Assembly (NCBI GenBank): GCA_017465565.1 | Contig: JAFTWA010000059.1 | Coordinates: forward strand, 1 to 64,000 | Source of the DNA: Tyzzerella sp. | Lineage (GTDB): Bacteria; Bacillota; Clostridia; Lachnospirales; Lachnospiraceae | Length of the DNA: 64,000 nt | Reading direction: 5' to 3' | Shown: positions 10,034-43,777 of the stretch, in pieces | Numbering within the stretch: the first letter of the stretch is position 1 | Layout: each line of letters opens with the position of its first letter | Notes under the pieces: model-generated | Databases searched by the model: none | The model's input: only the letters and a program-made list of their open reading frames with translations | What the model was told of the DNA's origin: nothing | Program-made: the position numbers and the translations under genes

Positions 10034-10990
10034 CTATAATGCCATCAAGGCAATCAGACAAAGAATTGCTGTAATAATAGAAAATACAGCTACCACTCTT
10101 GTCTCTGACCAGCCAGAAAGCTCAAAGTGATGATGGATTGGCGCCATTTTAAAAATACGCTTTCCACCCGTTTTCTTATAATATGTTACCTGAATCATAA
10201 CTGATAATACTTCTATCAAGTAAATAAGCCCCACAATCACAATAAATAATGGCATTTGCAGCATGTATGCTGTGGACGCTACAAATCCACCGAGTGCAAG
10301 AGAACCGGTATCTCCCATAAATACACTTGCAGGATATACGTTGAATAATAAAAATCCAAGCAAAGCACCTACAACTGCACAGGTAATTGGTTCAATACCA
10401 CTCTTTGTTCCGATTGCAACGACTGTAAAAAAGGTTGCAACAAGAACAGTTACGCTGGAAGCAAGGCCGTCAAGACCATCTGTGAAGTTTACACCATTTA
10501 CTGTTCCAATAATTACAATAAACATGAGTGGAATTGCAAGAATTCCCCAATCAATGTACTGGCCGCCTGAAAAAGGAATCAGCCATGTAAGCGGCACCTC
10601 TGTGAATCTCACCATATAAAATGCAAAAACAGCCGTCACAAGAATCTGGAGTGCCATCTTCTGTTTTGGATACAATCCGTCTGAACGTTTCATAACAACC
10701 TTCAGATAATCATCCAAAAATCCAATTAATCCAAAGCCCAATGTCACGAATAAAATCGGAATAATCTTCGGATAATCTTTGATGTAAAACACAGAAGTAA
10801 GTGCGATACTTCCTAAAATAATGACTCCACCCATTGTAGGAGTACCTGCTTTTTTCAAATGTGACTGTACGCCTTCTTCACGTTCTGTCTGCCCCATCTT
10901 AAGCTTTCTGAGAATCGGAATCACCACCGGTCCCATAATTGCACTGAGTGCAAACGCGATTAAAACAGGCACAAAAATTCTATAGTCCAT
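10034..10990 (-). CDS. mraY: phospho-N-acetylmuramoyl-pentapeptide transferase
   Basis: Membrane enzyme that makes lipid I from UDP-MurNAc-pentapeptide and undecaprenyl phosphate. About ten membrane segments. Conserved motifs: GTPTMGG near residue 50, FLDDYLK with the catalytic Asp pair near 90, NGVNFTDGLDGL near 165, and the cytoplasmic APIHHHFE near the end. Length 318 fits the family. GAGGTG four bases before the ATG supports the start. Standard place between spoVD-like PBP and murD. Confidence 0.97.
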   Translation of the reverse strand: MDYRIFVPVLIAFALSAIMGPVVIPILRKLKMGQTEREEGVQSHLKKAGTPTMGGVIILGSIALTSVFYIKDYPKIIPILFVTLGFGLIGFLDDYLKVVMKRSDGLYPKQKMALQILVTAVFAFYMVRFTEVPLTWLIPFSGGQYIDWGILAIPLMFIVIIGTVNGVNFTDGLDGLASSVTVLVATFFTVVAIGTKSGIEPITCAVVGALLGFLLFNVYPASVFMGDTGSLALGGFVASTAYMLQMPLFIVIVGLIYLIEVLSVMIQVTYYKKTGGKRIFKMAPIHHHFELSGWSETRVVAVFSIITAILCLIALMAL

Positions 10991-11045
10991 AAAACACCTC
11001 TTTATCTCTTTTGTTAGTTTCTCTTTAACCTTATATAGTATACAA

Positions 11046-12779
11046 CTATTCGCTCACCTTTTCAATCCCCAGATATGGAAGGATATTTTCAAAAATGGTT
11101 CGGACTACTGGAGCCGCAATGGTTCCTCCATAGTAAATTCCCTGCGGATTGTGGATAACAACAAGCGCCAGCACCTTTGGATCGTCTGCAGGTGCAAATC
11201 CGATAAACGAAGAAATGTACTTATTCGCACTTCTCGGCAGCGTCTGGGATGTGGCTGTTTTTCCGCCAATCTCATAGCCTTCAATATAAGCCTTCGAGCC
11301 GCTTCCTTCCGAAATCACGCTCTCGAGCAGCATCTGCATTGTTTCTGAGGTTTCATTCGAAACAATATTTTTTTCTTCTTTGTATGTAAATGTTTTTACG
11401 GTTTCTCCCTCTGCGTCCATTACTCTGACACCAAGGTGAGGCGTCACTCTGGTTCCACCATTTACAAACGAACTTACCATGGTCGCCAGTTGAATCGGTG
11501 TAATCTGAAAGGACTGCCCAAAGGTCATGGTAGCCAGCTCTACCTGACCCACATTTTCCTGTTTATGCATGATGGTGCCGGCCTCTCCCGGCAGGTCCAC
11601 ACCCGTTTTATTCATCAACCCAAATTCCTTAAAATATTTATAAAATTTTTCCACACCCAGCTCTAAGCCGATATCCATAAACACTGGATTGCATGAATTC
11701 TGAATTCCTTCCACAAAGGTTTCTGAGCCATGCCCGCCAACTTTGTGACAGCGGATTCTCCGGTCCTCCACAATCCGGTATCCCGGACAAAAAAACGCAT
11801 CATTCAGCTCCAGCGTTCCTGCTTCTAAACACGCCGCTGTTGTAAATGTTTTAAAAGTAGAGCCTGGCTCATAGGTATCGTTGATGCAGCTATTTCTCCA
11901 CATTTGATTCAGCAAATCCTGCTTCTCCTCATCATCCACCGGCTCCTCAGTGAGCTGCAGCGGCTCCAGAGAAAATGGCTCGTTGAGGTTAAATTCGGGC
12001 ACATTTACCATCGCCATAATTTCCCCATTCTGAGGATTCATAAGCAAAACCGATACTTTATCCGCCTGCTTTTCTTCCATTACCTTTTCCGCCATCTGCT
12101 GTGCGTACATCTGAATATTATAGTCTATGCTGATTTGAAGTGTGTTGCCAGGAATTGCCTCTACTCTATCTTCCGCAATGCCTTCTAATTCAATTCCTCT
12201 GGCATCCGTTGTTGTTAATATTGTTCCATTCTGGCCCTTCAAATAATCCTCGTATTTTACTTCCAATCCGATAATTCCCTGATTATCCCCGCCAGTAAAT
12301 CCCAGCACCTTTGAAGCCAATTCATTATATGGATAATATCTTTTATAGTCCTCATCTACCTTGACTCCATCTAATTCATATTCACGGATACGGTCACCGA
12401 TTGCCTTATCTACGTTGGTTTTAATTTTTTCACGCGAAGACACTTTTTCCACCTTTTGCCGAATAGTCATTTCGTCCATCTCAAGTTCTTCCGAGAGAAC
12501 CTTGATAACCGTTTCTGCATCCGTTATCTGGCTGTGAATGACAGAAATGGTACAGACCGTCTTATTCGTCGCAAGCACCACGCCATTTGCATCTATGATT
12601 TCTCCGCGCGCCGCTTTGATTTCCCTCTCTCTTTCATGAAGCTGCTCCGCCTTTTCCTGATAATATTCAGCTTCAAATATCATTAAATACGCAAGTCTTC
12701 CAATGAGACCAATTAACAGCACAATTGCAACGGAAAATACAATGAGTACTTTCCGTCTGTTATACGTTTTGTTTTTCAT
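11046..12779 (-). CDS. class B penicillin-binding protein, SpoVD-like, with KTA motif
   Basis: Septal or cortex transpeptidase anchored by one N-terminal membrane segment (residues about 10-32), then a dimerisation domain and a transpeptidase domain. The active site reads STFK in YEPGSTFKTF and SCN in IQNSCNPVF, but the third motif is KTA (GGKTATSQT) rather than the usual KTG; I checked the bases and the change is in the DNA. Length 577; no PASTA repeats, unlike Bacillus SpoVD. By position, second PBP after ftsL and before mraY, it matches spoVD. Its ribosome binding site lies within a hairpin. Confidence 0.88.
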   Translation of the reverse strand: MKNKTYNRRKVLIVFSVAIVLLIGLIGRLAYLMIFEAEYYQEKAEQLHEREREIKAARGEIIDANGVVLATNKTVCTISVIHSQITDAETVIKVLSEELEMDEMTIRQKVEKVSSREKIKTNVDKAIGDRIREYELDGVKVDEDYKRYYPYNELASKVLGFTGGDNQGIIGLEVKYEDYLKGQNGTILTTTDARGIELEGIAEDRVEAIPGNTLQISIDYNIQMYAQQMAEKVMEEKQADKVSVLLMNPQNGEIMAMVNVPEFNLNEPFSLEPLQLTEEPVDDEEKQDLLNQMWRNSCINDTYEPGSTFKTFTTAACLEAGTLELNDAFFCPGYRIVEDRRIRCHKVGGHGSETFVEGIQNSCNPVFMDIGLELGVEKFYKYFKEFGLMNKTGVDLPGEAGTIMHKQENVGQVELATMTFGQSFQITPIQLATMVSSFVNGGTRVTPHLGVRVMDAEGETVKTFTYKEEKNIVSNETSETMQMLLESVISEGSGSKAYIEGYEIGGKTATSQTLPRSANKYISSFIGFAPADDPKVLALVVIHNPQGIYYGGTIAAPVVRTIFENILPYLGIEKVSE

Positions 12780-32008: not shown

Positions 32009-35000
32009 CTAGCTTGCTTTATTTTTCCATATCTCGTTCCATTTTCTTGTGAATACCCCTTTATGATAAGGATTTGACTCCCACAATTGTCCATAAACTC
32101 TATAATACAAAGTTTTGCTTCCAAGAAGTTCCATGTTCTTCGGTTCACAAATGAGTTTTTGAAACGCTATGCTATCTTGTTCTGTCGCAAATTTTCCAAA
32201 TTCATTCAGATATTTTTTCTTTATTTCAATATCTGTTTGTTCTTTAAAAATGTATTCAAAAAACCGTTTGTGTTGAGAAACTTTAAAAATCGGAACAACA
32301 TGCTTCTCAGACAATTTTGATATATCTGCCTCTTGTTGTAACCTTTCTAAAAACTCCCAATGATTTGACATGATGTCAAACATTCGGTCGATTCTTATAT
32401 AAACATAAACGTAGTCAGAAAATGGAATCCTTTTGTCAATTATCATATCTTGTTTTCTCAAAGAATCTGCAACAATATAATCTTTATAATATTTCCTTTT
32501 ATGCAACTCTTGACATAAATGTTCGGATAGTCCAATAGTTACATGATATTTATCTAACCTTGCAAGATAGATATCTGTTAATTCATCTATATCTCTCACA
32601 ACTTCTGTGTATTTCACACTATCTTCATAATCACTTTTAATTAATTCTTCTACTTCTGGAATGAAACATCCGATGTGTTTTGTAAGCTGAATTGCTTTTT
32701 CTCCATTATTCACTTCGCACTCTTCTTCTATGACAGAATATAGGTGGCTACGCTGTTCATTTGATAAAATTTTCATGTCCACTCGATTAAATTCAAAATC
32801 TTCAACAAATTTTGTTCTTACATCTTCGTCAACAACACATATTTCACGTTCTTTATTCAACAAATTGTCAAACACCGTAAGAACATCTTCTGCCGTATTC
32901 ACTTTACGATAAATTAACGCTAATACTTCCGTGAGATTTTCCGAGGTGATTTTCAACGGATTAATCAAAACAACCCCTTCTGAAATATCAGAAGACATAT
33001 CAAACTCTTTTTCCGTAACCAATGGATATTCACCAAAGAACAATTGACGATATTCTTCTTTTTGCATTTCCAAGGCAAAATAAGTTCGAAATGCAACTAA
33101 AATATTCGGGTACCTATCATTTAATTTTTTACAAGCGCCTAAAATTTCTTCAAAGTTTCCTATATAAGGATTTAACATTTTTAATTTATTATTATTAACC
33201 AGATATAAAATAGCGGTATAAAAAAGTTTCTGTTCCAACAATGTCATTACAATTTCTTCACTGATGTACCTTTCGAATCCCATATTATCAATAGCCTTCA
33301 TATAATCCTTTGAAAAATCCGTAGGTTTAAATAAATTTAAATAATCTGCTATTCTATCTTGAGAAACTTCTGATTCACCTACCACTTCAAAGAACCCATC
33401 GTTACAAATCATGTTATTCTGCATAAAACATAATATTTCTTCACCAATATCAACTGGTTCTATATTTTCTGCAAAAAACTGCATGATTTTCCAGCATATA
33501 TTTTCTACCTGCGTAAAATCTGTTGGAGATATAGCATTTACTACTTTACACAAATACTGTGCTTGCGATTCCTCCAGTTTTTTCAGATTTACAAGTTTTA
33601 TCGCAGTAAGGGGACTTCGAATTTCTTCGATTTCTTCTTCCGAAATCTGCGGGGCGCCATCATTAACAAAAACATCTGTAAATTCAAGCAGATCAAACTT
33701 TACTCCTTTAATAATATTGATACGCTCTTGAATAATGTTTTCTTCAGTTTCAGATAAAGAGATTATTCTTGTGATACATTTATTTATAAATTCCGTTCTT
33801 TTTTCTTTTAAAGTATTTATTCTGTCCCATATGCAAACCGCCTCTCCTAAGCCTTTTTCTATTCCAATCATCTTTTTTAGAAAGGCTTCAAACAGCTTAT
33901 CCATCGAAACAACTGCTGCCTCTACAAATAAAATGTCATTCATCAAAACAACTGGCGGAAAGGTCTCTAGAGTTCCTAGTGTCTGCTTAATCGTTCTATT
34001 TTCGCCGTCATAGTATGCTCTTTCAACATTATAATCTAATTTTTCATAGCTCATATTTTGATTTGGAAACAGTAACCAGTCGCAGAGCGCTCTTTCTTCT
34101 GTCGTTTTTATATGGCTTCCTTTTGGATATGTATAGAAATACATTCTAAAATCATCATTAAATATGCCATTAAAAACCATGTCACACAGATCCAACACAA
34201 ACTTCTCTGAATAATTACCTTTACCCAAACATTCATTAAATGCCTGTATCAATTCATCTATATCTTCTTGTTGGTTTGCCTCATTGACAATCTTATAGCT
34301 TCTTTGCATAAACTCTGCAAATGCCTTTTCATCTTTAATCAACGCATAGTAATCTTTTGAAAATTGATTCTCCAAGTAAGATATTGCCGTACACGCCTCA
34401 AAATTAACAGCTGTATTTACTTTATATTCTTGATTCTTCAACGATACCATTATAGCAATGGCTTTATTTAACCGTTCCTTCAAATCACGCAGTGTTAGAT
34501 TTGTCCCCTTTTTTATCCATTTAAACGATTCTGGCAACACATCTTCCACTTTTATACCAATCAAATTTTGCAATGCAATTTTACTTGATGCATCACTTTT
34601 TATCAAACGTAACAAAATAGAATCATAATCATCAAAATGTATTGGCTTTAATGAGACAATAATATCAAATACTTTCGTATATACATAATCCACTTCCTTG
34701 TCATCCTCTAATTGCTTTAGTTCAGATTCTGGCTTAATGGAAATAACAAAGACAAATTTAGAACAATCTTCTACCAGTGAATCTTGAAACCGATAAATTT
34801 CTTTTAAAAATTCAATCATTACCTCTTTTTCATTAATACGATCCAAATCATCAATAAAAACTAACTGTTTACCCTTTTTAGGTTTTATTTTCTCAATTAT
34901 CATACTGTATGTATCAAATACATCGCTAATCTGTATTTCACTTTTGCCCAACATTTTCCAATGAGAGAATGCAATACAAACATCCTTTACGCCCAAAAAG

Positions 35001-35572
35001 ACAGCTATTCCCGCAATCAATACAAAAACAGGAGAGATCGCTTTGAAAAAAGCTACTGCTATATCACACCATTTCGGCAAAAATTGCATGACTCCTGTAC
35101 CTGAAACATTCGCCACTTTATAAAGCGTATATGACACACCAGCTATTATAAACCAGACAACAAACCATACTAAATTATTAACCGAAAATGATATATTGCC
35201 ATAGTTTTTGCTTAAAATTTTATTTATATAACGTCCAAATTTTGATGCATGACCATTTGCCAATTGATACAAAAAAGATTTTGTCAGATTAGAAACATTT
35301 TCATTTAACTCTTTTCCTGTTTGCGAACTTAAGCAATCCCACATATTTACTTTTATAGGCTTCGGATTTTTATCATTTTGTATTTCATTACAAAGCAGAT
35401 TCGTCATGCTTGTTTTTCCCGTACCATAATCAGCAATTACCCCTATCATATTAGCCCCTTTGTTTATTGCTGAGCGTATAATATCAACTTGTGATTGAAA
35501 TCCTATTACATCTTCACCGCTATCAGATATTGGATTGTTCACAAAAACTATAGGTTTGTATTTATTATTCAA
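32009..35572 (-). CDS. KAP-family P-loop NTPase
   Basis: Large ATPase of 1187 residues. Walker A (IADYGTGKTS) lies at 45-54 and Walker B (QLVFIDDLDRI) at 236-246; two membrane helices (134-153 and 176-196) sit between them, the diagnostic layout of KAP NTPases such as Kidins220 and the phage-exclusion protein PifA. About 900 residues of unassigned, mostly helical sequence follow. Start is TTG 35572 with GAGGAGA seven bases upstream; a longer frame reads through this site. A promoter-terminator cassette shared with two other units precedes it. An exclusion or defence role is likely for the family but unproven here. Confidence 0.85.
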   Translation of the reverse strand: MNNKYKPIVFVNNPISDSGEDVIGFQSQVDIIRSAINKGANMIGVIADYGTGKTSMTNLLCNEIQNDKNPKPIKVNMWDCLSSQTGKELNENVSNLTKSFLYQLANGHASKFGRYINKILSKNYGNISFSVNNLVWFVVWFIIAGVSYTLYKVANVSGTGVMQFLPKWCDIAVAFFKAISPVFVLIAGIAVFLGVKDVCIAFSHWKMLGKSEIQISDVFDTYSMIIEKIKPKKGKQLVFIDDLDRINEKEVMIEFLKEIYRFQDSLVEDCSKFVFVISIKPESELKQLEDDKEVDYVYTKVFDIIVSLKPIHFDDYDSILLRLIKSDASSKIALQNLIGIKVEDVLPESFKWIKKGTNLTLRDLKERLNKAIAIMVSLKNQEYKVNTAVNFEACTAISYLENQFSKDYYALIKDEKAFAEFMQRSYKIVNEANQQEDIDELIQAFNECLGKGNYSEKFVLDLCDMVFNGIFNDDFRMYFYTYPKGSHIKTTEERALCDWLLFPNQNMSYEKLDYNVERAYYDGENRTIKQTLGTLETFPPVVLMNDILFVEAAVVSMDKLFEAFLKKMIGIEKGLGEAVCIWDRINTLKEKRTEFINKCITRIISLSETEENIIQERINIIKGVKFDLLEFTDVFVNDGAPQISEEEIEEIRSPLTAIKLVNLKKLEESQAQYLCKVVNAISPTDFTQVENICWKIMQFFAENIEPVDIGEEILCFMQNNMICNDGFFEVVGESEVSQDRIADYLNLFKPTDFSKDYMKAIDNMGFERYISEEIVMTLLEQKLFYTAILYLVNNNKLKMLNPYIGNFEEILGACKKLNDRYPNILVAFRTYFALEMQKEEYRQLFFGEYPLVTEKEFDMSSDISEGVVLINPLKITSENLTEVLALIYRKVNTAEDVLTVFDNLLNKEREICVVDEDVRTKFVEDFEFNRVDMKILSNEQRSHLYSVIEEECEVNNGEKAIQLTKHIGCFIPEVEELIKSDYEDSVKYTEVVRDIDELTDIYLARLDKYHVTIGLSEHLCQELHKRKYYKDYIVADSLRKQDMIIDKRIPFSDYVYVYIRIDRMFDIMSNHWEFLERLQQEADISKLSEKHVVPIFKVSQHKRFFEYIFKEQTDIEIKKKYLNEFGKFATEQDSIAFQKLICEPKNMELLGSKTLYYRVYGQLWESNPYHKGVFTRKWNEIWKNKAS

Positions 35573-35615
35573 TGCTATATCTCCTCTCCATTCTTTCAGA
35601 TAATTTATCCCAAAC

Positions 35616-35704
35616 AAAAAGGCAGGCAAACAAAGGGCTTCCGCCCTTTGTTACCTACCTATCGACCCATGTCTATTCTAACATATTATTACATTTTACG
35701 ACAA
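35616..35704 (-). promoter_or_regulatory. shared leader cassette, copy 1 (before KAP NTPase)
   Basis: Promoter TTGTCG (35704-35699), 18-base spacer, TAGAAT (35680-35675). About 15 bases after the expected start, arms 35659-35643 and 35638-35621 fold into a 17-bp hairpin with one bulge and a 4-base loop, followed by five T residues. The cassette ends about 43 bases before the TTG start. Homologous to 40757-40847 and 43633-43722. Confidence 0.75.
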
Positions 35705-35735
35705 CCATTTCTATTTTTATTTTCTGTTCGATATT

Positions 35736-36908: not shown

Positions 36909-38603
36909 CTACAATTCGTATATTTTTTTCAGACCCTCTCTACATATCATACACTCGTCTTTATCGAGTTTGCATACTGGAACATCAATTTCAGCCAATG
37001 CAAATCGCTTAATACTAATTGGAAATTCTGCCCCATTTTGTTCATCACCATCTAAGAGATTCTTATTATAAAACAAAGCGAGAACAAAAAACTCCGAACA
37101 TTTTTGCAAAGCTTTATCAGATGCTATTATTTCTTTTAAATATGTTGTAGTTGGCATTATATCGCATATCAATAAAATTTTTTCAAACTCATTAAATTCG
37201 TTCCACAATGACTTTTCTCTATTAATATGTTCATCTTTTTTATGAACAGATGGATATAAATGATAACTCACTTTGTTTTCTATCCAGTAATCCAACAAAC
37301 TACTTCCGATTATATTCCCTTCCATTCCATAACCTATTGCCACTTGAATATTAGGGAAATTCATTTTATGCATTCCCATTATGCATTCTTTAATTCTATT
37401 TAAAATGTCTATGTTTCCGAGAAAAGCCGGTATATTTATCCATCCTAAAGTTTTTCTACCGTCTTTCCAGTGGAAATGACCATCTTTATAATTATTATCT
37501 TTTTTCAAATGTTCAATTAAAAACCTATTATTTTCATTCACAACAATTTCCTTAGAGTATTTCGCAATAACTTTTTGTTCATTATCATCATCTACCTTAG
37601 GTAATTCCTCCACTTGTGACACAGGTTCCGTTTTTTGTTTTGTCTGTCTTACTTGCAATTTATGTAAATATTTTCTATCATTTACTTCGAGCCAATCTCC
37701 CGCTGTATATGCATAGTCATGCAAGTCCAACTCATTATCTTTGCATATTGCCACCGAAAATCTATTTGTAAAAGCATCGCCGTTTTCATTTGTTAAAATC
37801 TTACCCAAACTACCAATTTCAATATATCTATATAATTCTCCACCATCACCCACTATATCCAAATGACTTTCTGACGTATGATGATGTCCATAAATAAAGG
37901 TATTTATTTCTTTTAATCCCAAATTCTTTTTAACTACATCCGCATTTTTTAGTGTAGCCAATTCTCTGTTTCCGGTAACCGCAAAACTATGGTGAGTCGC
38001 TACAAATACAGATGCCTTCTTTCCTACCATAAACTTGTCTAACTCTCCATTTAATTTTTTAATATCAATATATCCCACATGATGTTCATCCAAATGTCCT
38101 TCTTTTGCTAACGAATTCAATCCGACAATATATGTGTCAATTTCATCAATATATATATAATCGAGAAGTGCGTTACTTACCTCTAAATTTTTGTTATCTA
38201 AAATTTTTTTATAAAACTCCTTAAAGTTTCCCAATTTTATATCATACAAATTAGGGGCATCGTTTCCGGATATTCTATTATCATCGCAATAAGTTGTTAA
38301 CTTCGCTCTATCTATATCATGATTCCCAGGAACTAATAAAATATTTTCTATTCCTATTTCTAATCTATTGCATAATCCCTTTAAAATCTCTTCAAAATCT
38401 TCATATTCCATCTTTCGAGCAGTATCGGCAATATCCCCTGTAACTACCAAATATTTGAATTTTATTTTTTGATTCTTTTGTAATTCCAACAAAAAATTTT
38501 CCCACTTCTGATAATAATCATTTTCATCTCCTTTCCAAAATTGTGATTTTGTCTTATTATCAGTATAATGAATGTCTGAAACTAACAAAATTGCACTATT
38601 CAT
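36909..38603 (-). CDS. calcineurin-like phosphoesterase fused to a phosphoribosyltransferase-like domain
   Basis: 564 residues, third gene of the operon. The N-terminal 290 residues are a metallophosphoesterase: D-x-H (DIH 10-12), GDIAD (56-60), GNHD (93-96), HH (204-205) and GHHH (239-242). After a linker, residues 420-490 resemble a type I phosphoribosyltransferase: VAIGYGMEGNIIGSSLLDYW for the PPi loop and LLICDIMPTTTYLKEI for the PRPP loop. The end has Cys544, Cys551 and Cys554 as a possible zinc site. Start ATG 38603 (MNSAILL) is nine bases after GGAGG and overlaps the previous gene by eight bases. Partners suggest a nucleotide-like signal; inferred. Confidence 0.82.
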   Translation of the reverse strand: MNSAILLVSDIHYTDNKTKSQFWKGDENDYYQKWENFLLELQKNQKIKFKYLVVTGDIADTARKMEYEDFEEILKGLCNRLEIGIENILLVPGNHDIDRAKLTTYCDDNRISGNDAPNLYDIKLGNFKEFYKKILDNKNLEVSNALLDYIYIDEIDTYIVGLNSLAKEGHLDEHHVGYIDIKKLNGELDKFMVGKKASVFVATHHSFAVTGNRELATLKNADVVKKNLGLKEINTFIYGHHHTSESHLDIVGDGGELYRYIEIGSLGKILTNENGDAFTNRFSVAICKDNELDLHDYAYTAGDWLEVNDRKYLHKLQVRQTKQKTEPVSQVEELPKVDDDNEQKVIAKYSKEIVVNENNRFLIEHLKKDNNYKDGHFHWKDGRKTLGWINIPAFLGNIDILNRIKECIMGMHKMNFPNIQVAIGYGMEGNIIGSSLLDYWIENKVSYHLYPSVHKKDEHINREKSLWNEFNEFEKILLICDIMPTTTYLKEIIASDKALQKCSEFFVLALFYNKNLLDGDEQNGAEFPISIKRFALAEIDVPVCKLDKDECMICREGLKKIYEL

Positions 38604-39672
38604 TACATTTCCCCTCCATTTCACATCCAGCACACAAATCCGTCTTAATTTTATAATCTATTTTATTATTTGTTTTTGAAACAGTATATAATGAAGCCCT
38701 ATTGTCAACTTCTCTATTTTGAACTGTTTTTATATCGACAACACAAGTTTCACCGCCAACTCTTCCACCACAATATTCTATTATTGTTCTAGCTCGTCCC
38801 ACTTCTCCTCCCAAACATATTACATCTGATACAATAATATAATTCTTATCATCCGCTATGCTCTTTTCGAAATGTTTTCTGTGTACACTTCCTAAAGGTC
38901 CCAAATGATCGAGATAGACCATATCAACATTAAATAATTGCGCCAGTTGTGCAGCTATATAGCCACCATTCATAGTATGAAAAAACAAACTGATATCCTT
39001 ATTTTGATTGCATTCCTGCTTAATAATATTTTTATCCATCATCTGCAAAGCCAAATAATAAATACATAATCTAAAAAAACCTGCATTACTTTCTGCCATT
39101 TTCTTTATGTCTATATATTTAGACAAATATACCGGAACAGAGGTATGTTGCTCATTTGTGTTATTCAATTCATCTGTACACTCTGATACTACTCTTCCAA
39201 ATTCTTCTCGAAAAGCTTCTTCTGCCTCACAAATCAATTGATCGTACTGTGGAGTAGCTTTCCCTCTACCAATTCTGCCCGAAACTATACAATCAGTTTC
39301 TTCTAAAATCTGGAATTTATCTCCCCAATTCATTTTCTCCAAAATATTTTTTTGCACGTTCAATAAATAGACATTCTTTCCTTTTGCACAAAATTGTTTC
39401 TTTATAAAAGTAACAAATGCTACTAAATTATTTTCTGTTATTTCTTCAATCTTTTTAAAATCAATACATATACTTTTGTTTTCATAAGGATAACTGTATA
39501 TGTGTTCAAAGATATCTGCATTAATTTTTCTGCAGTATATCCCCTGCTTTTGACGTGATGTATTTTTTATGCGCTCATCTTCTATAAAGCCGTTTAAATA
39601 TGTATGTAATGCACATTCAGCATGCATATTTAAATAATATCTATTTTCATCTTTCAGTATCGAATAGAGCAT
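38596..39672 (-). CDS. STAS-like plus phosphoribosyltransferase-domain protein
   Basis: 358 residues, second gene of the operon. Residues 55-115 (SICIDFKKIEEITENNLVAF...) look like a STAS fold (SpoIIAA-like). Residues 225-315 form a phosphoribosyltransferase core: SLFFHTMNGGYIAAQLAQLF and the PRPP loop VSDVICLGGEVGRARTI (281-297), as in orotate PRTase. The end has Cys347, Cys350 and Cys356. Start ATG 39672 (MLYSILKDE) has GGAGGAGG six bases upstream and begins one base after the previous stop; the 11 extra codons of the longer frame are dropped. Substrate base unknown. Confidence 0.8.
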   Translation of the reverse strand: MLYSILKDENRYYLNMHAECALHTYLNGFIEDERIKNTSRQKQGIYCRKINADIFEHIYSYPYENKSICIDFKKIEEITENNLVAFVTFIKKQFCAKGKNVYLLNVQKNILEKMNWGDKFQILEETDCIVSGRIGRGKATPQYDQLICEAEEAFREEFGRVVSECTDELNNTNEQHTSVPVYLSKYIDIKKMAESNAGFFRLCIYYLALQMMDKNIIKQECNQNKDISLFFHTMNGGYIAAQLAQLFNVDMVYLDHLGPLGSVHRKHFEKSIADDKNYIIVSDVICLGGEVGRARTIIEYCGGRVGGETCVVDIKTVQNREVDNRASLYTVSKTNNKIDYKIKTDLCAGCEMEGKCNE

Positions 39673-39673
39673 T

Positions 39674-40708
39674 TTAATCCTCCTCCTTGTCCACTGCAAT
39701 TTCAATTCTTACTCCCTGAAATCCTACACCAAATAACTTAATCGGAGAATATGAATCTTCACTCTGCCGTTCTAATAGACAGCTTACACATGAAGAAATA
39801 TCCTTTTTACCCTCATTTCTTTTACAATTCTTACAACTATTTTGAGAAAAAATCACTTGAGTATTTCCATATTGAATTTTAAAAATCCCATTACATTTCA
39901 CTACATTGGTCATCAACGTCCATAAATCTGCTCTTTTATCTTTCAAGTGCTTCTCATATGAATAATTCAACACGCTCATTATGACTAAATAATTATGAAA
40001 TTTAGGCCCTAATTTTTGATATTTTTCTACCATATTTAACTTGCGTTTTTCTTTTATAAATGACCGTTCAAATCCCACACCCGAGTCTGCAATACTGATG
40101 TTTGTTCCATATTTGTCTGACGCAACATATGTAAAAGAATAAGAATTACTGTATATTATTGAATTTGTTTCAATCTCAGCTATTGAACTAATTGTTGCAT
40201 CTATGATGTTAATCGGTAATTGATGCGTATCTTGCAATATTTTGCCATAGACCGCTTTACTTTTATCCACCAAGCAATCATAAATATAATCCCTTTTTTT
40301 CACAGGATTTTTAATTCTATCTACATCAGTATAATGTATGTTCGTATATGAAATCTTGTGCAAATCCCGCAATTCTTTATAATTCCAACTTTCAATTATC
40401 TCTTTATCAATTTTGAAAATTTGCAATTTTTCTGATATGCTTTTAAATTGACTACATATAATAAAATTCAACAAACTCGATTCAGAACCAATCAACAATT
40501 CTATTGGTTGTTTATACAACTTTCTAAGATAATCTCCAAAAGACAATATAACAGGTACCGCTGATGGTGTTATATATTGTGTTTTTCTCATATCTAGTAT
40601 AGGAGGCGTCTCTCTATCCAAAGAATATATTTCAAAAGATTTCCTTAATATATTGTTATAGAAATAATATGTCGATATCTTCTCATCAAATATTATTATA
40701 TTATCCAT
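39674..40708 (-). CDS. STAS-like domain fused to GHKL ATPase
   Basis: 344 residues, first gene of the operon. Residues 30-90 (PPILDMRKTQYITPSAVPVI...) resemble a STAS domain. Residues 150-290 are a GHKL ATPase: N box SIAEIETNS (175-183, Glu180 and Asn182) and G1 box ISIADSGVGFE (204-214). No kinase histidine, so it is closer to RsbW/SpoIIAB-like or HSP90-like ATPases than to sensor kinases. Four cysteines, 292, 295, 307 and 310, suggest a zinc knuckle. All three proteins of the operon share C-terminal cysteine clusters. It follows leader copy 2. A partner-switch with the STAS domain of the next protein is possible. Confidence 0.8.
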   Translation of the reverse strand: MDNIIIFDEKISTYYFYNNILRKSFEIYSLDRETPPILDMRKTQYITPSAVPVILSFGDYLRKLYKQPIELLIGSESSLLNFIICSQFKSISEKLQIFKIDKEIIESWNYKELRDLHKISYTNIHYTDVDRIKNPVKKRDYIYDCLVDKSKAVYGKILQDTHQLPINIIDATISSIAEIETNSIIYSNSYSFTYVASDKYGTNISIADSGVGFERSFIKEKRKLNMVEKYQKLGPKFHNYLVIMSVLNYSYEKHLKDKRADLWTLMTNVVKCNGIFKIQYGNTQVIFSQNSCKNCKRNEGKKDISSCVSCLLERQSEDSYSPIKLFGVGFQGVRIEIAVDKEED

Positions 40709-40756
40709 ACCTATTTTATCCTTTCATCTTCAAAATTTCTTATTTTCTATTTACGC

Positions 40757-40847
40757 AAAAAAGGCAAGCAAATAAAGGGCATACGCCCTCTACTCACCTA
40801 CCTTTTGACCCAATAATATTCTATCATATTTCTACATTTTTCGACAA
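40757..40847 (-). promoter_or_regulatory. shared leader cassette, copy 2 (before STAS-GHKL operon)
   Basis: Promoter TTGTCG (40847-40842), 18-base spacer, TAGAAT (40823-40818). Arms 40802-40785 and 40780-40763 pair over all 18 positions if G-U pairs are counted, with a 4-base loop, and six T residues follow. It ends about 49 bases before the ATG at 40708. TGTCGAA, a 0A-like box, overlaps the -35. Confidence 0.78.
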
Positions 40848-40871
40848 CTATTTCTGTCACTTATTTTGATT

Positions 40872-41060
40872 TTACTTTCCAAATACCATCTGAAGATTTA
40901 ACCAAACTTCAATACTTATCCCTAACATTATTGACAATTTTTGTTCCAGATCATTAGATAAATTTGCCTGACCATTTACTAATTTACTTACTGTTTTAGG
41001 TGTTGTACCAAGTCTAATTTTCGGTAATATAATTTCATCGTATATTATAATTAAAGTCAT
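40872..41060 (-). pseudogene. HigA-like antitoxin remnant
   Basis: 62 codons. From residue 17 the sequence RLGTTPKTVSKLVNGQAN and LGISIEVWLNLQ matches the second half of HigA-type XRE antitoxins. The first helix and the LTQ-type part of the helix-turn-helix are missing, replaced by an unrelated hydrophobic stretch (MTLIIIYDEIILPK). The ATG follows the stop of the 842-residue protein gene after three bases, without a strong ribosome binding site. It may be translated by coupling but probably lacks function. No HigB toxin is nearby. Confidence 0.6.
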
Positions 41061-41063
41061 TTA

Positions 41064-43592
41064 CTAACCTGTTATTATTGTACCTGCTGGACTTTCTTTA
41101 ACATTAACAGATATTTTAGCGGTAACGCTAATTATTTTCCTTTTGTTGTAAAGGAATTCCTCTAACTCGTTTTCTGTAAACTCTATAGGCACTCCATTGA
41201 TAATCGGATAATAGTAGGCATCTAACTCGTTATCATATTCCACTTTTTCCTCTGATATGCTCGAAGAATTTACGGAAACATTTACATCAATTAAACTAAC
41301 TTGAATAGCATTTTCTTTCAACAAAATCCCTTCTCTCACTGCATCAGTAAATACCGTCTCACATTCTTCTTTAAACCTTTTAAATTCAGCTGCCAACTCA
41401 TAATCTCTATTCGCTACTGCATACTGAGACCCCAATAATATTTTCAAACTGTTTGCATTCAAATAATTTATGAAATCTTTGTCGTCGATAAAGTCCCTAG
41501 TTCTGTTTTTCAATTCCACATCGTTACTTTTATACAAATAATTTGCAATACCTACCAATAAACGTCCTACTATATATGAATAATAACCGCTTATACCTTC
41601 CTCTACGACTGTATTTGTATATACATTCAAATGTAGCAACGGGACATTTATAATTTCATTTTTAGAATCATCGTCCGTTAAAATAACTGCGCACTCTTCT
41701 TTAATTAACTCAAAAACATTTTCTTCAATTTTTCTACATAACTCCCTTTCATTTACTTTTTCTTCGTACTCGTGTTGTTCTTCTCTAGCAGTTTTAACAT
41801 GTTTCTCTTTTATATTCTGCTTTATCGTTTTTTCTAGCCTTTCATACAACAAACCTACTTCTGTATTAATCTTATTTTCATTTGCATCAGAAGCACAAAT
41901 TAATCTGTATAGAGTTGTAAACGTCTCCTTTACTTTTCGTTCATTCTCTATTTGAACATATCTATATACATTTATATCATCAATATTGTTTTTTAATAAT
42001 TGTGGCTTATAATATTTCTGGGATATGTATAGAACAGTAAATATATAGAAATCGTCTATTACATAATCAATAATAGCTTCTTTCACAACAAATTCTTCTG
42101 AAAAATATTCGTATTTATCTAACACTTCATGCATTCTCTGCAGCATTGTCAAATCCAGCCACTCTGCATTCATTGATAATAATCTCAAAAAATGATCGTA
42201 TGCAGCTTTCACTTTATGATCTAACATAATATCTTGGGCATTTTGTTTAATTTTCTCTGAAACATATTTTTCACTTTCTCTTTCAGCCAAGTAATAAGTA
42301 TAGCAATGGAACATTAAATATAATAATGCATGATACCTGTTTTTCAATCTATATGTATTTTTAATCCCTTGCAGGTAAAGTCCCTTTTTAAGTATATCTC
42401 CCATTCCATTTACCAATAAGCTATAACAGTAGACAAAATATATCTTACTCTTGTCCCACAAAAATTTCTCACATTTATCGCTTGGAATGTTATATTCAGA
42501 GAAAATAGCCCATGTACTAAGAGGTTGTTCCCATTGTCTCTGACTCAAAACATGATTTCTATTCTTTTGCTCCGCTAAATAATATCCCATTCTTCCTGCA
42601 AACCGGCAAAGTTCTCCCACATCACTTTCTTTAGTTCCCAACCAAATTTCAATTCTTTGAACCATATCTATGAAATGCTCAAATCTAAATACCCTTTCCA
42701 CTCTTTCTATACTTTGTTCGTAAATTGCTTCTAATATCTCGCTTGAAATATCATTAAACAACCAAAATCCTTCTTTATACTGTTCTTCTGACGGTTGCTC
42801 GTTTAATATCATACTCCACAACAGGTTATATACTTCTTGTGTAAACTCAACACCTCGTACTTTCATAAGGTTTTTTTCAGAACCTAATAAACAATATGAA
42901 ACCTTGTAGCATTGTTGTTGAATACACCCTAACCCACCATCTGTCTTGTGCATCCATAATTTATGCATACACTTTTTGAACACCTCAAGATATTTTTTAT
43001 AAGTTGCTTTATCCTGTTCATTTATTTCCTTTAGCCAGTCAAGCACAAAATTCTGAAATATACTATTCTTGGTTTTACAATCGAAAGCACTCTCTAGTAC
43101 ATAATCTATATATGCCTCTATTTCATCATTCGCAATATTTTTCCCCTTAAAAACCGAATAAATTTCTATGATAGAAATTGCAATTGTAATCAGAGTTGCA
43201 ATAAACAAAAAAAATACTGTATTATATATCTCTAACACATGAAATAGCACACTTATCACAGTTAAACCTAATGCCATCAAAATAATTACCTTTTGTTTCA
43301 ATTTCCATGGTCTTATGTTTAAATAGTAATCACTTATCGATACACCCATATAAGAATCCGAAATATTTCCTGTAATCAGCGCAATAATCGACATCACTAA
43401 TGTTCCTATAGTAGATTGCACTTGTAATAGAGTTAATGAAAAATCATTTATATCTTGAATTTCAATCTTGGCTTTGAAATTTATTACATACCAATCACAA
43501 AAAAGTCCCACTACCAAACACAATATAATACTTATAATCCCTATTAGTTCTGTGCGAACATATTTTTTTCGTATTTTATTCCATTTATCCAT
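41064..43592 (-). CDS. 842-residue membrane-anchored protein of unknown function
   Basis: Not recognised. Four hydrophobic segments lie in the N-terminal 150 residues (about 15-35, 57-77, 101-120 and 124-146); about 690 residues of Glu/Lys/Tyr-rich, helical, presumably cytoplasmic sequence follow, with no motif I know. Near the end there is a beta-like stretch (VSLIDVNVSVNSSS, IISVTAKISVNVKE). The ATG has GGAGA eight bases upstream and leader copy 3 lies ahead. The layout, membrane anchor plus large helical domain, is common for membrane effectors in defence islands, but this is only by analogy. Confidence 0.72.
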   Translation of the reverse strand: MDKWNKIRKKYVRTELIGIISIILCLVVGLFCDWYVINFKAKIEIQDINDFSLTLLQVQSTIGTLVMSIIALITGNISDSYMGVSISDYYLNIRPWKLKQKVIILMALGLTVISVLFHVLEIYNTVFFLFIATLITIAISIIEIYSVFKGKNIANDEIEAYIDYVLESAFDCKTKNSIFQNFVLDWLKEINEQDKATYKKYLEVFKKCMHKLWMHKTDGGLGCIQQQCYKVSYCLLGSEKNLMKVRGVEFTQEVYNLLWSMILNEQPSEEQYKEGFWLFNDISSEILEAIYEQSIERVERVFRFEHFIDMVQRIEIWLGTKESDVGELCRFAGRMGYYLAEQKNRNHVLSQRQWEQPLSTWAIFSEYNIPSDKCEKFLWDKSKIYFVYCYSLLVNGMGDILKKGLYLQGIKNTYRLKNRYHALLYLMFHCYTYYLAERESEKYVSEKIKQNAQDIMLDHKVKAAYDHFLRLLSMNAEWLDLTMLQRMHEVLDKYEYFSEEFVVKEAIIDYVIDDFYIFTVLYISQKYYKPQLLKNNIDDINVYRYVQIENERKVKETFTTLYRLICASDANENKINTEVGLLYERLEKTIKQNIKEKHVKTAREEQHEYEEKVNERELCRKIEENVFELIKEECAVILTDDDSKNEIINVPLLHLNVYTNTVVEEGISGYYSYIVGRLLVGIANYLYKSNDVELKNRTRDFIDDKDFINYLNANSLKILLGSQYAVANRDYELAAEFKRFKEECETVFTDAVREGILLKENAIQVSLIDVNVSVNSSSISEEKVEYDNELDAYYYPIINGVPIEFTENELEEFLYNKRKIISVTAKISVNVKESPAGTIITG

Positions 43593-43632
43593 CGTTCAAT
43601 TCTCCAATATAAAAAGTAAAGGTAACAAATAC

Positions 43633-43722
43633 AAAAGGCAAGCAAATCAAGAACATCTGCCCTTTATTCGCCTACCTTTTTGCCCCATCTCTATTCTAAC
43701 ACACTTTTACCTTTTTCGACAG
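43633..43722 (-). promoter_or_regulatory. shared leader cassette, copy 3 (before 842-residue protein)
   Basis: Promoter CTGTCG (43722-43717), 18-base spacer, TAGAAT (43698-43693). Arms 43676-43659 and 43655-43637 pair with one mismatch and several G-U pairs; four T residues follow. It ends about 40 bases before the ATG at 43592. The most diverged of the three copies. Confidence 0.72.
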
Positions 43723-43777
43723 TAATTTCTAATATTCACTCCCCAAACTTTGCCCTAAAAAGAGAAATAAACAAAAT

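Follow-up and report, generated by a model that had tools for sequence, protein, structure and literature searches.

What does an operon do that joins a GHKL-type ATPase, two phosphoribosyltransferase (PRTase) folds and a phosphoesterase? We took up this question for three consecutive minus-strand genes, GH, ST and PE (gene 3), in a 64,000-nucleotide stretch of Tyzzerella sp. DNA (GCA_017465565.1, contig JAFTWA010000059.1; the whole stretch is called the window below). The trio spans positions 36909..40708 (Table 1). An initial annotation of the window had described three adjoining genes with 1-8 bases of spacing or overlap, and the coordinates confirm this: GH ends one base before ST begins, the frames of ST and PE share 8 bases, and PE is flanked by ST and a DUF3048 gene. 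We found that the trio recurs across phyla and that relatives carry a fourth gene for a flavin-dependent thymidylate synthase (ThyX). The explanation we favor, still short of an even chance, is that the operon moves horizontally as a module acting on the nucleotide pool, probably against phages (or other elements).

Conservation of the operon and its thymidylate synthase partner

Ten operons, the window's included, were found in Bacteroidota, Bacillota (Lachnospiraceae, Bacilli, Thermincola and Desulfosporosinus) and Cloacimonetes. The order GH-ST-gene 3 and the strand were kept in 10/10, with gene 3 of locus L053 cut by the end of the sequence. These relatives were located through ST alone, and the co-occurrence of GH and gene 3 was seen afterwards. 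The initial annotation had named recurrence of the trio across genomes as support for its reading, and predicted structures without the expected folds and homologues that never co-occur as observations that would count against it. What we found was co-occurrence in all ten operons and a PRTase fold in the predicted structure of ST.

ThyX is encoded directly after gene 3 in 8/8 relatives with sequence beyond gene 3 (L040, L044/L075, L045/L074, L069, L070, L071, L072 and L073), a count that excludes L053. The window operon is a ThyX-less form, and the initial annotation could therefore not include this partner; a search of the window's genome (88.6% complete) recovered ThyA but no ThyX. All eight operon copies retain an intact RHRxxS motif, and both ThyX proteins that were scanned passed the TIGR02170 cut-off of 87.9 (135.8 and 154.3 bits). 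Among themselves, operon ThyX proteins show 61-93% identity, and their identity to the other ThyX proteins of two host genomes is 29-36%. By comparison, GH, ST and gene 3 diverge fast (18-76% identity between operons), which favors a role in conflict. Four of the eight host genomes also encode ThyA and two encode a clear second ThyX, so the operon copy is clearly additional in 6/8. The match to a second ThyX in genome G1066 was weak (29.9 bits against a cut-off of 24.8).

In a tree, ThyX proteins grouped by operon type, and phage and free-standing ThyX proteins fell among or beside the operon copies. The record MT837074.1 (L085, filed as 'Bacteriophage sp.') encodes a ThyX 66% identical to the operon copy of L049. 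Judged by eye, the neighbors of this ThyX are cytidylate kinase-like, LytB-like and of bacterial housekeeping type. MT837074.1 may be bacterial DNA, because the open reading frames (ORFs) that adjoin ThyX read like bacterial housekeeping genes.

The operons are distributed patchily across phyla. An ST search of 299 genomes of the family returned the window's own genome and one 60-residue fragment match (G062), which was discarded. Besides its own genome, GH returned short weak matches in four of 391 class genomes (E 0.0016 or worse), and rescanning five of six weak GH loci (L007 excluded) with a GH profile gave no match. One true second copy, in Thermincola (G884), emerged from an ST search of 398 phylum genomes, in which thirty genomes with matches in frames of 172-239 amino acids (aa) were discarded as a group. 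From the ST motifs of the window and G884 we derived a DNA pattern (LGP-23 residues-Dx[IVM]CLGxE). Matches to this pattern came from 13 stretches of the species-genome collection and from one viral contig, in which the operon and its flanks are the same as at the Desulfosporosinus locus. True relatives were present in nine of the 13 stretches (G884's included); L046, L050, L054 and L055 held the pattern without a relative and were dropped as chance matches. Because the pattern requires the exact motif and spacing, ten operons is an undercount of the family. With a profile built from all ten ST sequences, we identified full-length ST in 1/397 family genomes and 1/391 class genomes, with no further full-length copy. 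Seven family genomes matched this profile, six of them through single-domain ORFs of 177-226 aa that are probably PyrE-type. Relatives were not found in plasmid, phage and viral-contig searches with the window proteins, in alignment-pattern scans of viral contigs, or in a plasmid search with ST from L049.

Table 1. Features of the operon and its surroundings. Positions refer to the window, except in the last row, where they refer to locus L071.
Feature	Positions	Strand	Length	Description
GH	39674..40708	minus	344 aa	N-terminal STAS-like region (unproven); GHKL-type ATPase domain; C-terminal CxxC...CxxC
ST	38596..39672	minus	358 aa from ATG; 369 aa from upstream TTG	STAS-like domain (~1-140); PRTase fold (~150-350) with altered PRPP loop (D283, C286-L287-G288, E290)
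PE (gene 3)	36909..38603	minus	564 aa from ATG	Calcineurin-like phosphoesterase (~1-300); orotate-PRTase-like domain (~345-530); C-terminal cysteines
KAP-family P-loop NTPase	32009-35629	minus	1206 aa	PF07693, 5.1e-10; weak PADLOC PifA match
842-aa protein	41064-43592	minus	842 aa	Apparent N-terminal membrane segments; no Pfam or NCBIfam match
HigA-like helix-turn-helix ORF	40872-41060	minus	62 aa	After the 842-aa gene
Leader element of GH	40755-40865	minus		Promoter-like site, 22-pair hairpin and U-run
Leader element, further copy	35613-35718	minus	~105 nucleotides	
Leader element, further copy	43629-43736	minus	~105 nucleotides	
Schlafen AlbA_2 + HATPase_c_4 protein	10982-12436			Directly 3' of the L047-operon ThyX, 4-base overlap

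Domain assignments in GH, ST and gene 3

The calcineurin domain of PE, which the initial annotation had recognized as a phosphoesterase, was the sole Pfam match in the window trio (PF00149, 2.3e-10), and the other domain calls therefore required the relatives. GH and ST of the window had no useful-level match in PADLOC, PHROGs or Pfam and matched no NCBIfam DS model; in NCBIfam, ST matched PRTase entries only, and weakly.

GH had been described as a STAS-GHKL protein, and the GHKL part of this description is the part that our data support. Alignment of ten operons revealed an invariant N box (E178/N182) and G1 box (D208-G210-G212) in 10/10. The best matches of a GH profile in PDB were histidine kinases (E 0.018), and a Pfam scan of the ten GH proteins gave weak matches only. 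The invariant boxes and the weak profile matches support the GHKL identity of GH. A profile of the GH N-terminal part matched a single PDB entry, a putative peptidase (E 0.053), and no usable match emerged between N-terminal slices from GH and from ST (P 0.094).

We obtained a usable structural model of ST from ten sequences (pLDDT 74.9, pTM 0.79); a single-sequence model was unusable (pLDDT 36). The predicted structure has a PRTase fold by Foldseek, with PurR among the first rows, and the profile matches to this fold were weak. In type I phosphoribosyltransferases, the canonical loop for phosphoribosyl pyrophosphate (PRPP) consists of an acidic pair and TTG-T. The ST loop reads xDx[IV]CLGxE in 10/10 operons and does not take the canonical form. 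The N-terminal part of ST is likely a STAS domain, as the initial annotation proposed: its best profile match in PDB was the anti-sigma factor antagonist TM1442 (E 0.028), and the order of its elements in the model fits the STAS topology. Pfam STAS matched 1/10 ST proteins (0.046), and Pfam matches were otherwise weak across the ten. Rows missing from the structure search carry no information on this N-terminal part. Compared as whole profiles, ST matched neither gene 3 nor GH significantly, and the PRTase slices of ST and gene 3 matched weakly in register (P 0.0045).

Sequence comparison shows gene 3 to be a constant C-terminal PRTase/cysteine module that carries an exchangeable phosphohydrolase, because its calcineurin and HD types have homologous C-terminal parts (BLASTP 6e-7 in a single comparison). 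We read this exchange as an effector swap. The N-terminal part is calcineurin-type in eight operons and HD-type in two (Thermincola L040 and Desulfosporosinus L044/L057). Core residues of the calcineurin metal motifs (DxH, GD, GNHD, H and GHxH) are invariant in 8/8, and the HD types pass Pfam HD-CE with 74.5 and 60.2 bits against a cut-off of 27. All nine aligned C-terminal parts share G, H, Y, E, D, C and C columns, including a GH motif and, near the C-terminus, two cysteines. Their profile matches orotate phosphoribosyltransferases (1.7e-6 to 3m3h, profile positions 31-173), and 4/9 match Pfam PRTase-CE (best E 0.0026). Both PRTase domains of the initial annotation were thus recovered, that of ST by fold and that of gene 3 by profile. 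The HD-type gene 3 of L044 also passes Pfam Pribosyltran (27.7 against 26.3 bits). The canonical PRPP loop (DVIVTGxT) occurs only in the two HD types and a partial SG[SE] in L045 and L070; the loop is degenerate, with neither form, in the window and the other aligned calcineurin types. The Thermincola genome of L040 encodes a second HD-CE protein (L042, a 938-aa open frame, 180 bits) on a contig other than that of the operon.

Each protein had also been annotated with a terminal cysteine cluster (292/295/307/310 in GH, 347/350/356 in ST and 544/551/554 in PE). These positions are right for the window proteins with the starts in Table 1, but the GH and ST clusters are not general in relatives: both HD-type operons lack the GH cluster, and only the window, L045 and L051 have that of ST.

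A possible nucleotide-pool module and its alternatives

In the explanation we favor, the ATP-binding GHKL protein GH and the STAS domain of ST would form an ATP-dependent partner switch. The PRTase-fold domains of ST and gene 3 would act as sensors of PRPP, a pyrimidine nucleotide or an alarmone rather than as ordinary transferases; ligand binding fits these domains better than messenger synthesis because the PRPP loops of ST and of most gene 3 proteins are non-canonical. Infection or stress would shift the ligand, and the switch would free gene 3. Its calcineurin or HD domain could then hydrolyze a nucleotide or nucleic-acid substrate, which would stop replication. ThyX would supply thymidine monophosphate, either restoring the pool or setting a thymidylate signal that is read. 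The operon has the shape of a conflict system with an effector directed at nucleotides because it combines an ATPase switch, altered PRTase loops, an exchangeable phosphohydrolase, patchy islands and fast divergence, and the nucleotide-sensing gate on gene 3 is proposed by analogy with DS-8/DS-9, calcineurin effectors and Clover. More doubtful is a specific version of this idea, namely that the operon represents a new type of immunity in which a GHKL-STAS switch and two orotate-PRTase-fold sensors restrain a swappable nucleotide hydrolase while the operon's own ThyX sets or rescues thymidylate disturbed by phage. If the operon is protective, it would unite in one system partner-switch ATPases, PRTase folds reused for sensing, and effectors that act on the nucleotide pool through swappable hydrolases, and the constant ThyX partner would offer a testable thymidylate handle on what such systems sense or attack.

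We compared the operon to known systems. The metallophosphatases DS-8 and DS-9 protect against phage and require their catalytic residues, with a target given as unknown (PMC13092281). Their calcineurin-type phosphoesterase is related to that of gene 3. DS-9 is paired with a HAD phosphatase gene, which is absent beside PE, and DS-8 has a NACHT domain, unlike the GH-ST-gene 3 operon (PMC13092281). PE matched the DS9_1 model NF053862 at 7.6e-21 (2.9e-28 for its L049 counterpart), but with 74.5 bits against a cut-off of 420 and no HAD partner gene, we rejected membership in DS-9. Among the systems validated in the same work, on DefensePredictor, are some with a PRTase and some with a thymidylate synthase (PMC13092281). 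Clover consists of the HD dGTPase CloA, switched on by dTTP, and the nucleotidyltransferase CloB (PMC12265719). Clover and our operons have in common an effector of the HD phosphohydrolase type and a connection to thymidine nucleotides, but most of the operons carry calcineurin rather than HD, and membership was rejected because the operon genes (GH, ST and gene 3, with ThyX in relatives) include no nucleotidyltransferase. The accessible text on Clover does not mention phosphoribosyl, STAS, GHKL or thymidylate (PMC12265719).

Other systems resemble single parts of the operon. Calcineurin-type phosphoesterases are common effectors of predicted GTPase-centered conflict systems (PMC7159879). Ter systems are described as producing nucleoside derivatives by means of PRTases and phosphoesterases of the HAD type (PMC7824862) and share PRTases and phosphoesterases in a conflict setting, whereas the operon has calcineurin or HD in place of HAD and adds GHKL, STAS and ThyX. 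No Ter gene was found among the proteins scanned, in searches that were not aimed at Ter genes. DprA-PRTase (PMC9122126) and the PRTase effectors of type III retrons (PMC12548924) also place a PRTase-fold protein in an anti-phage operon; the operon described here lacks DprA and reverse transcriptase, and its PRTase folds are fused to STAS or to a hydrolase. The likeness to HD-CE (the HD-type gene 3) and PRTase-CE (4/9 C-terminal parts) is one of domain families only. These families reportedly go back to Nicastro et al. in 2023, who may describe related effectors. Because the names imply that similar domains have been catalogued, the operon may be newer than its effector types. The GH-ST-gene 3 set was not described in the literature within our reach, which excluded most subscription journals and supplements.

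The island setting that the initial annotation had named as support for its reading is borne out by defense-type or recombinase genes in the flanks of 7/10 operons. This neighborhood is suggestive, and several points weigh against a defensive module. The 7/10 is a raw count from flank proteins chosen by eye for scanning, and the other three operons had no such neighbors (L072, with two flank proteins scanned; L053, viewed by eye only; and L074, with almost no flank). A STAS fold is not established in the N-terminal part of GH, and the alignment of ten GH proteins contains no GxGLGL-like run, that is, no recognizable G2/lid box. Operon ThyX does not form one separate clade in the tree. ThyX is absent from the window, and some forms of the operon therefore do without it. 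The only thymidylate synthase found in G1064 is the operon copy. The rarity of the operon also fits a niche metabolic role.

The last two points lead to the likeliest alternative, itself an unlikely one: a nucleotide-homeostasis or starvation operon on mobile DNA that balances thymidylate and pyrimidine pools under ATP/PRPP control. ThyX in 8/8 relatives and the orotate-PRTase-like folds point to pyrimidine metabolism, related ThyX proteins occur without the operon in phage records, and a metabolic role would fit the sole synthase of G1064. The clear redundancy of ThyX in 6/8 genomes argues otherwise, as do the great sequence divergence and the defense-type or recombinase neighbors. It is slightly less probable that the same enzymes form a pathway for a messenger, as the initial annotation had supposed for the PRTases. 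Two PRTase folds, ThyX and a phosphohydrolase could in principle build a nucleoside-like compound, methylate its pyrimidine and trim or remove it; the PRPP loop of the HD-type gene 3 is canonical, with L044 passing Pribosyltran, and a precedent has been suggested for Ter systems (PMC7824862). The claim is nonetheless weak, since the ST loop is altered in 10/10 operons, the window and most calcineurin types have a degenerate gene 3 loop, and the window trio exists without ThyX.

We give only a slim chance to an RsbW/RsbV-like partner switch for transcription, in which the PRTases would be PurR-like nucleotide sensors and gene 3 a phosphodiesterase that cleaves a second messenger. The pairing of GHKL with STAS, the appearance of PurR in the Foldseek search and the profile link of ST to an anti-sigma antagonist are what it has to offer. 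It leaves ThyX and the exchange of HD for calcineurin unexplained, no sigma factor or DNA-binding domain was recognized in the operon proteins scanned, and a helix-turn-helix gene lies directly upstream of the operon only in L070 and L074.

Genomic neighborhoods and the leader element of the window

The flanks of the relatives contain diverse genes. L040 has a tyrosine recombinase upstream and a GajB-like helicase and a DruK-like nuclease downstream. An OLD-family nuclease, a resolvase and an integrase accompany L075, EcoRI endonuclease and methylase lie directly upstream at L069, and L070 has two serine recombinases. The neighbors at L071 are AbiH, HEPN, KAP PDC-S49 and Schlafen-type, and those at L073 are PDC-S73 and PDC-M29A. 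In the window, the neighboring KAP NTPase, with its weak PifA match, is likely a second conflict gene beside the operon. The 842-aa gene, the helix-turn-helix ORF and the operon share an AT-rich stretch of ~30% GC.

One copy of a leader element lies before each of three accessory units: the KAP NTPase, the GH operon (~105 nucleotides at 40755-40861) and the 842-aa gene. Each contains TTGTCG-18-TAGAAT (CTGTCG in one copy) followed by a hairpin and U-run, with folding z values of -4.8 to -7.3. An Rfam scan of the window and a blastn search of plasmids and phages with the hairpin gave no match. Searching the window's own genome with the element returned the 43.6-kb copy and matches of 18-24 nucleotides only; because this search missed the diverged 35.6-kb copy, further diverged copies are possible. 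We rejected the hairpin as a feature of the operon family: in nine relatives, the most stable hairpins that precede GH have energies of -7.7 to -18.3 kcal/mol, compared to -29.0 in the window. From its sequence, the element looks like a shared promoter and attenuator of a co-regulated island.

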